DNA of 64,000 nt, taken from a virus. How positions within the stretch are numbered: the stretch's first letter is position 1; every line of letters begins with the position of its first letter. The notes below the pieces were generated by a model that saw nothing but the letters and a program-made list of their open reading frames with translations, was not told the origin of the DNA and did not search any database. Location: positions 50,833-114,832 of IMG/VR virus record IMGVR_UViG_3300035698_017726, one strand, 5' to 3'. This document shows, piece by piece, positions 50,314 to 53,982 of the stretch. The translations under genes and the position numbers were made by a program.

Positions 50314-51054
50314 CTAAGAAAGGATGAACTCGAAGAGGGGCTTACCGACAGCCTGGGCGGGGGCTGGGGAGCTGTTGGCCTCTTCTCTGGCGATGTGGAC
50401 AGCCTGGCGCAGCTTGTTGACCTTCTCCAGCATGGCCTTCTTCTTCGAGGCGCTCATGCAGCCAGAGAGGTTGGTCGTGACCCAAGTGCCTTCGATGATG
50501 TCCTCGGTGAGCTCAGTCCACTGGGCTGGGTGCTTCTCAGTGGCTTCGACGACTACGCGAGGGGTCTTCACCTTCTTGGACTTGTAGGTCTCGGTGGGCT
50601 TGCCCCGATACATCCGAGTACCGTCGTCGTACGCCCAAGGCTCCGAGGGGTCCAGCTCTGGGATGCGGGCCAGTACGCCGGCCATGTCCTTCAGCTGCTT
50701 CTCGAGGGAGAGCAGGAAAGGAACAGGGGCGTCCGCCAGGAGGATGACGCCATCCACTTCGACGCTGGCGAAAGCACCCATGTTGGCGAAGTCCCTGGTG
50801 GCTTCGGCATCCATCAGGTTGGTCCACTGAAGGACGCACTGGTCCAGTACGTCGTCGGTGCGCTTCTGCACCAGGATGTCCTTTTCCTGGTACTTGATGC
50901 CGTCTTCCTCTGCGGGCGTCCAGGCCTTGGTCTGCCCCTTGAAGAGGTCAGCCTTTGCCAGTGCCTTGTAGAGCTTGCTCAGCTCGGAGTTCGCTGCGGT
51001 CTTCACGTCCTTCGTGATGGCGATGACGTGAGAAAGTCTGCTTTTCTTGGCCAT
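50314..51054 (-). CDS. Hypothetical protein
   Basis: 246 residues, AAGGGAGCATTTC before the ATG. Mainly helical, soluble, with a central KYQEKDILVQKRTDDVLDQ segment. No catalytic motif recognised. Its stop lies 54 nt before the first permuted tRNA. Confidence 0.65.
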   Translation of the reverse strand: MAKKSRLSHVIAITKDVKTAANSELSKLYKALAKADLFKGQTKAWTPAEEDGIKYQEKDILVQKRTDDVLDQCVLQWTNLMDAEATRDFANMGAFASVEVDGVILLADAPVPFLLSLEKQLKDMAGVLARIPELDPSEPWAYDDGTRMYRGKPTETYKSKKVKTPRVVVEATEKHPAQWTELTEDIIEGTWVTTNLSGCMSASKKKAMLEKVNKLRQAVHIAREEANSSPAPAQAVGKPLFEFILS

Positions 51055-53487: not shown

Positions 53488-53491
53488 ACAA

Positions 53492-53580: not shown

Positions 53581-53778
53581 CTATCCAGGTACTGCGAACT
53601 TTCTTACGGTTCGCCTACCCAATTGGACCTCATCGCCAGGCTTTACGTCGGCCATGATGTCCTTCACTACCTTGCCATTGATCTTGACCCATCCCGAGGC
53701 CAACAGTCTGCGGGCCTGAGAATGGGACTGTACTACTCCGGCGTCACCCATGGCCTTGACGGCTTTGATGAACTCCAT
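53581..53778 (-). CDS. S4-domain RNA-binding protein
   Basis: 65 residues from ATG 53778 with GGGAGAG upstream. Nearly the whole protein is one S4 domain: FIKAVKAMGDAGVVQSHSQARRLLASGWVKINGKVV, then the KPGDEVQLGRR strand. S4 proteins bind structured RNA such as rRNA or tRNA. Its leader is the tRNA-like element at 53794-53891, a possible binding or autoregulatory site. Confidence 0.8.
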   Translation of the reverse strand: MEFIKAVKAMGDAGVVQSHSQARRLLASGWVKINGKVVKDIMADVKPGDEVQLGRRTVRKFAVPG

Positions 53779-53793
53779 AATCTCTCCCGTTGA

Positions 53794-53891
53794 AATGCTG
53801 CAGACCACCCACTTCGGAGTGCCCACTCGCCTATGTAGGAAGCCCGCCCCTTGCGGGACAGGGCGGGAGTTGAACCCGCATAGTCTGCATT
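53794..53891 (-). ncRNA. Permuted tRNA-like element in the leader of the S4 gene
   Basis: In transcription order: TGCAGAC, TAT, T-arm GCGGG-TTCAACT-CCCGC (a tmRNA-type T-arm sequence), CCTGTCC-C-GCA, a 3-nt link, GGGCGGG (pairs 7/7 with CCTGTCC using two G-U), a region with GAGTG/CACTC, then GTCTGCA, which pairs 7/7 with the first segment. Read circularly this is an acceptor stem, T-arm and anticodon-like stem; the D-arm is not standard. Confidence 0.45.
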
Positions 53892-53893
53892 GA

Positions 53894-53982
53894 TGGTGGC
53901 CATGGGGAGACTCGAACTCCCAAGGGGATGCATGCCCCACTGCGCCCTGAACGCAGCGCGTTTACCTTTTCGCCACATGGCC
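53894..53982 (-). tRNA. tRNA-Leu(CAG)
   Basis: Long variable arm, anticodon loop TTCAGGG, acceptor GGCCATG/CATGGCC, CCA encoded. Confidence 0.9.

Follow-up and report, generated by a model that had tools for sequence, protein, structure and literature searches.

The element between tRNA-Leu(CAG) and an S4-domain gene

The window, a stretch of 64,000 nucleotides, comes from a virus record of 114.8 kb that carries a large tRNA array, put at 44 tRNAs by ARAGORN and 45 by Rfam. On the minus strand of the array, ARAGORN places tRNA-Leu(CAG) at 53894–53982, and the gene that follows (53581–53778) encodes a 65-aa S4-domain protein. The stretch from the CCA end of the tRNA at 53894 to the ATG at 53778 holds a 91-nt element, designated E3 (53889–53799, minus strand), which fills the entire gap; many open reading frame (ORF) leaders in the same cluster measure just 15–30 nt. 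Read along the minus strand, the 5′ part of the stretch is UCAA-UGCAGACUAU-GCGGG-UUCAACU-CCCGC-CCUGUCCC-GCAA-GGGGCGGG-CUU, and after CUU it continues as CCUAC-AUAGGCGA-GUGGG-CACU-CCGA-AGUG-G-GUGGUCUGCA-GCAUUUCAAC-GGGAGA-GAUU-AUG.

In its minimum free energy (MFE) fold, E3 forms a T-arm, a hairpin of 8 bp capped by GCAA, a basal helix of 10 bp, and two smaller hairpins. The 5′ strand of the basal helix (UGCAGACUAU, 53880–53889) begins 4 nt after the CCA end of the tRNA and pairs with GUGGUCUGCA at 53808–53799. The 7-bp outer helix proposed in a first-pass annotation of this DNA corresponds to its seven perfect pairs, which are extended by U·G, A-U, and U·G to a continuous 10 bp. The T-arm (GCGGG-UUCAACU-CCCGC, 53863–53879) has a perfect, undamaged 5-bp stem, and its UUCAACU loop retains the residues required for the T-loop fold. 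It had been described as tmRNA-type; the arm itself is present, but it is not specifically tmRNA-like, because the phage's own tRNA-Phe has the same loop. The acceptor-like hairpin, CCUGUCCC-GCAA-GGGGCGGG (53843–53862), has its strands in permuted order and two G·U pairs, as annotated, but spans 8 bp rather than 7, and its loop is a GNRA tetraloop. In the MFE fold it is followed by a 5-bp hairpin with GG in its loop (CCUAC-AUAGGCGA-GUGGG, 53822–53839), a possible stand-in for the D-arm, and by an extra 4-bp hairpin (CACU-CCGA-AGUG, 53810–53821) that has no tRNA counterpart. With the ORF included as context, predicted pair probabilities were 0.95–1.0 for the T-arm and acceptor and 0.69–1.0 for the basal helix. 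The S4 gene has a good Shine-Dalgarno sequence, GGGAGA (53783–53788), which starts 10 nt after E3, in agreement with the earlier placement of a ribosome-binding site within about 10 nt. Autoregulatory S4 leaders show this arrangement, a structured element immediately followed by an S4-domain gene that has its own ribosome-binding site.

Judged by profile, the S4 gene is real, with a PF01479 score of 33.5 bits (cut-off 22.8). The protein appears most similar to the S4 domain at the C-terminus of tyrosyl-tRNA synthetase (TyrRS): the score against the corresponding profile, PF22421, was 26.9 bits, just below the cut-off of 27; the best PDB match was a weak one to the TyrRS 6byq (E 0.009); and comparisons with PHROGs and NCBIfam placed tyrosyl-tRNA synthetase first, also weakly, with a phage TyrRS profile among them. 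The ORF encodes no catalytic domain. Homologues were sought without success in 50,697 phage records, in IMG/VR by sequence search and with a small profile, in 23 related IMG/VR phages reached via terminase (most 64–72% identical in the terminase protein), and in five phages carrying DUF7873. In bacterial genomes, the matches were to distant S4 domains within other proteins. No homologous locus combining the S4 gene and E3 came up in direct, profile, related-genome, or plasmid searches; the element was not found in the related phages examined and is known from one genome only.

MFE z-scores were −2.1 for 117 nt containing E3 (dinucleotide shuffle), −2.9 once the element was trimmed (4 of 600 shuffles were as good), and −1.8 for the 115-nt leader from the tRNA end to the start codon. 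A stable leader is not special in itself here because stable folds are also predicted for two other long leaders of the tRNA cluster (z = −2.6 and −2.3). The architecture of E3 was compared with chance at the level of its motifs. Simulated sequence totaling 140.6 Mb contained 809 five-pair T-arms, 11 of them with a closed acceptor and none equal to E3, and no case with both a T-arm and a closed acceptor had a basal helix longer than 8 bp. Because the T-arm may derive from a tRNA gene, it was held fixed in a second simulation with random flanks. A closed 7-bp stem then arose in 4975 of 400,000 sequences, an 8-bp hairpin with a 4-nt loop directly 3′ of the T-arm in 127, and a closed stem together with a basal helix measuring 10 bp or more in 66. 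Since the two simulations matched E3 rarely or never, its architecture is very unlikely to be accidental, any single figure being tempered by the freedom with which the earlier reader chose what to notice. Fold, pair probabilities, and chance tests agree with the annotation of a structured, tRNA-like element directly before the S4 gene.

Other tRNA-like features were observed in the window. A tRNA-like gene at 48451–48230 (minus strand), missed by ARAGORN, has an apparent D-loop insertion of ~150 nt closed by an 11-bp helix (CCUCUACUGCU/AGCAGUAGGGG), and another at 53490–53382 (minus strand) carries a AAGCUACC/GGUAGCUU insert. Hairpin-inserted tRNAs lie on the plus strand at 39473–39575 and 39585–39669, with a UUCG-capped hairpin in a D-loop and another hairpin in an anticodon arm. 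A probable tRNA-Gly(GCC) with an unusual T-loop, uncalled by ARAGORN, lies at ~41190–41117 (minus strand). No tmRNA was found in this record; one-piece tmRNAs occur in the related phages G022 and G001 (L050:2480–2901 and L053:9258–9660; tags ANNTNAFAPVALAA and ANNNNHFAPVAAAA).

Permuted tRNA-like modules in this and other phages

The first-pass annotation had counted E3 as a possible third permuted tRNA, and its first two are almost certainly the modules E1 (50157–50259) and E2 (49990–50094). Both lie on the minus strand downstream of a gene for a DUF7873 protein (PF25283 by profile; 50314–51054, minus strand), and in both the T-arm is followed by the acceptor 3′ strand with its CCA, then by a short spacer, the acceptor 5′ strand, and the D-arm. 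E2 scored 36.9 bits with the Rfam YrlA model, whose gathering score is 69. Read from the sequence, the E1 ends cannot be rejoined into a 7-nt anticodon loop that has U33, which makes decoding by E1 unlikely. The two modules are not established tRNAs but members of an RNA family linked to DUF7873, a system separate from E3.

BLAST with the E1/E2 region gave matches in Arthrobacter and Gordonia phages located, like E1, ~100 nt 3′ of DUF7873, and one or two permuted modules were found 3′ of DUF7873 in Arthrobacter, Gordonia, Rhodococcus, Pseudanabaena, Rhizobium, and Vibrio phages. Among the 76 DUF7873 genes in IMG/VR with enough flanking sequence, 65 have a permuted module within 750 nt downstream (at least two modules in 36 of those 65) and none has one upstream; shuffled sequence downstream of DUF7873 yielded none. 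In an alignment of 12 sequences, four of them picked because they pair and the other eight found via DUF7873, the acceptor stem is paired in every row, with both-side changes in six of its seven pairs. Only the tRNA and tmRNA models of Rfam reach their gathering scores at these loci, and no mention of DUF7873 was found in the literature searched. The DUF7873-linked loci examined were 49990–51054 (minus strand) in the window together with L079, L080, L081, L084–L089, L091, L092, and L222–L301; a motif like RUUAUYGCUC is common to several of the RNA copies. E1 and E2 thus belong to a widespread, apparently undescribed RNA of phages that has either one or two permuted tRNA-like modules. This context matters more than E3 itself, and it makes the role of the DUF7873 family testable.

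A covariance model (R1) was built from twelve permuted modules, including E2 (58.2 bits) and excluding E1, which scored 42.8 bits. E3 reached 20.7 bits, matching only through its T-arm and acceptor (model positions 5–42 of 62). E3 is not placed with E1 and E2, because this partial match falls below the 25–44 bits of ordinary tandem tRNAs, the false positives of the model. It also lies ~2.7 kb from the DUF7873 gene, whose downstream slot is held by E1 and E2.

Two scans for a T-arm followed by a GNRA-capped stem returned nothing like E3 among the matches listed. They did return, again among the matches listed, permuted modules with D-arms in several IMG/VR phages, and four of the six pattern loci scanned with the Rfam YrlA model scored 35–48 bits. 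Phage YrlA-like RNAs with GNRA-capped acceptor hairpins (L113, L132, L140, and L164) occur in the TROVE/Ro60-encoding records G025, G027, G028, and G029, and those at L113 and L140 share a UUAUCGCU motif with the DUF7873-linked RNAs. Many phages among the matches listed have a recurrent pair consisting of a T-arm-like hairpin and then a GNRA-capped 6-bp hairpin with a conserved GCAGNNUGGUUGC-like stretch (L093, L130, L133, L139, L183, L304, and others); the L183 copy lies ~300 nt past a GOLLD match.

A proposed tRNA-mimic leader and its alternatives

The favored reading, to which we assign a probability of roughly 40%, is that E3, at the head of the S4 mRNA, is a cis-acting leader that mimics a tRNA and may be a ligand of the S4 protein itself. 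Its observed starting points are the sequence, predicted fold, and position of E3 and the S4 domain encoded after it. The transcription, processing, binding, and regulation that it proposes would run as follows. Excision of tRNA-Leu(CAG) from a common transcript would leave an S4 message that begins with E3 and reaches its ribosome-binding site 10 nt beyond the element. As the structured 5′ untranslated region of that message, E3 would imitate a tRNA in its T-arm/acceptor half, and either the S4 protein, as kin of the tRNA-binding C-terminal domain of TyrRS, or a host T-arm-binding factor could bind it. Binding would then alter translation or decay of the S4 mRNA in cis. A role in cis is the simplest reading because the leader spans the whole gap from the tRNA to the S4 gene, and binding by the S4 protein would be its most specific version. 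An architecture beyond chance, near-certain predicted pairing, and the resemblance of the S4 protein to tRNA-binding TyrRS domains support the leader reading, and both the tRNA-like regulatory leaders of synthetases and the autoregulation of ribosomal protein S4 are established precedents. Against it, E3 is known from a single genome, the searches of phage records, IMG/VR, and related phages having yielded no S4 homologue, and stable folding is shared by two other long leaders of the cluster. In addition, E3 leaves the Shine-Dalgarno sequence unsequestered in the predicted fold, where GGGA of that sequence base-pairs with the beginning of the ORF, and no regulatory switch is apparent in predicted folds of the leader with the ORF. 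An anti-Shine-Dalgarno switch, in which CUCCCG of the T-arm would pair with CGGGAG before the start codon, was considered and rejected (imposing this pairing raises the energy by 10 kcal/mol, and it is predicted with probability 0.0), as was an intrinsic terminator, there being no U-run after the E3 hairpins.

Two other accounts are serious rivals of a cis-acting leader. The first, which we consider doubtful but far from remote, is that E3 serves only stabilization or processing: a surviving tRNA 3′ half whose strong hairpins shield the 5′ end of the mRNA and have no specific ligand. E3 does read as a tRNA 3′ half with CCA changed to GCA, and its positions 39–72 read well as tRNA (TGCAG ACTAT GCGGGTTCAACTCCCGC CCTGTCC). 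The same cluster contains several odd or decayed tRNAs, and its other long post-tRNA leaders are stably folded, one of them GAAA-capped. This account has to contend with the intact T-arm and with the rarity, around a given T-arm, of both the adjacent capped hairpin and the closed stem with a long basal helix.

The second rival, which is unlikely, makes E3 a trans-acting tRNA mimic of the YrlA type that leaves the transcript as a separate RNA and binds a Ro60-like or some other protein. YrlA is described in PMC8394870 as a bacterial Y RNA whose tRNA-like domain binds Rsr and PNPase, and PMC7765460, citing Sim and Wolin, mentions its occurrence in phages. The order of basal stem, T-arm, and closed acceptor hairpin is the same in E3, and the T-arm with a GNRA-capped acceptor matches the YrlA-like phage RNAs, TROVE/Ro60 being encoded in four of eight records among the matches listed. 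The Rfam YrlA model, however, did not match E3 even at an E value of 10, the permuted-module model recognized only its T-arm and acceptor, and E3 has an uninterrupted 10-bp basal helix and no standard D-arm. The 114.8-kb record, possibly a fragment, encodes no TROVE protein.

A broader version of the leader reading is quite improbable: the S4 domain would bind T-arm/acceptor mimics in general, autoregulating through E3 and acting as chaperone or partner of E1, E2, and the odd, hairpin-inserted tRNAs. The annotation had offered E3 as either a regulatory mimic or a third permuted tRNA, and its two halves fared differently. A tRNA mimic stands before the S4 gene beyond chance, and a regulatory mimic is a reasonable interpretation. 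A permuted tRNA gene matured by ligation and cleavage can be dismissed. In its favor, the T-arm precedes its acceptor partner strand, and an anticodon-like stem (CUGCA/UGCAG) could join the two ends. The acceptor strands, however, have just GCAA between them, with no discriminator, CCA, or leader; a standard D-arm is missing, with 34–37 nt where a tRNA has ~19; rejoining the ends puts C at position 33 in place of U33; and neither ARAGORN nor Rfam tRNA reported E3. Were the cis-acting leader reading correct and E3 bound by the S4 protein, the phage would carry a tRNA-mimic leader that controls a synthetase RNA-binding domain in stripped-down form, a compact form of translation control inside a phage tRNA array.

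Relation to known RNAs and leaders

A tmRNA has a tag reading frame, pseudoknots, and tRNA-like ends, and E3 matches it at the T-arm alone; E3 as a tmRNA or permuted tmRNA was accordingly rejected. As in the permuted tRNA genes of algae and archaea, the T-arm and 3′ acceptor strand of E3 precede the 5′ acceptor strand, but E3 has a 4-nt spacer and lacks CCA, a D-arm, and a decodable anticodon loop. YrlA (RF02553; Salmonella YrlA, PDB 6CU1 as cited in PMC8394870) likewise has a basal helix, a T-arm, and a loop-closed acceptor in permuted order, with the acceptor hairpin directly after the T-arm. In YrlA that hairpin is followed by a D-arm (GCUCA..GGUAGAGC), whereas E3 has the 5-bp hairpin with the GG loop; E3 also lacks the interrupted basal stem, an Rfam match, and a Ro60 gene in its record. 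With the phage YrlA-like RNAs, E3 shares the T-arm and GNRA-capped acceptor, but it lacks their D-arm and interrupted basal stem.

The autoregulatory leader of ribosomal S4 likewise places an S4-domain gene after a structured leader that ends near the ribosome-binding site. The phage protein differs in being a 65-aa S4 domain of the TyrRS type, its binding to the leader is hypothetical, and E3 resembles a tRNA and leaves the ribosome-binding site outside its fold. Synthetase leaders that mimic tRNA, such as that of Escherichia coli thrS, are also tRNA-like elements upstream of the gene for a tRNA-binding protein. The thrS leader mimics an anticodon arm and overlaps the operator, whereas E3 mimics the T-arm and acceptor and precedes a gene without a catalytic domain.
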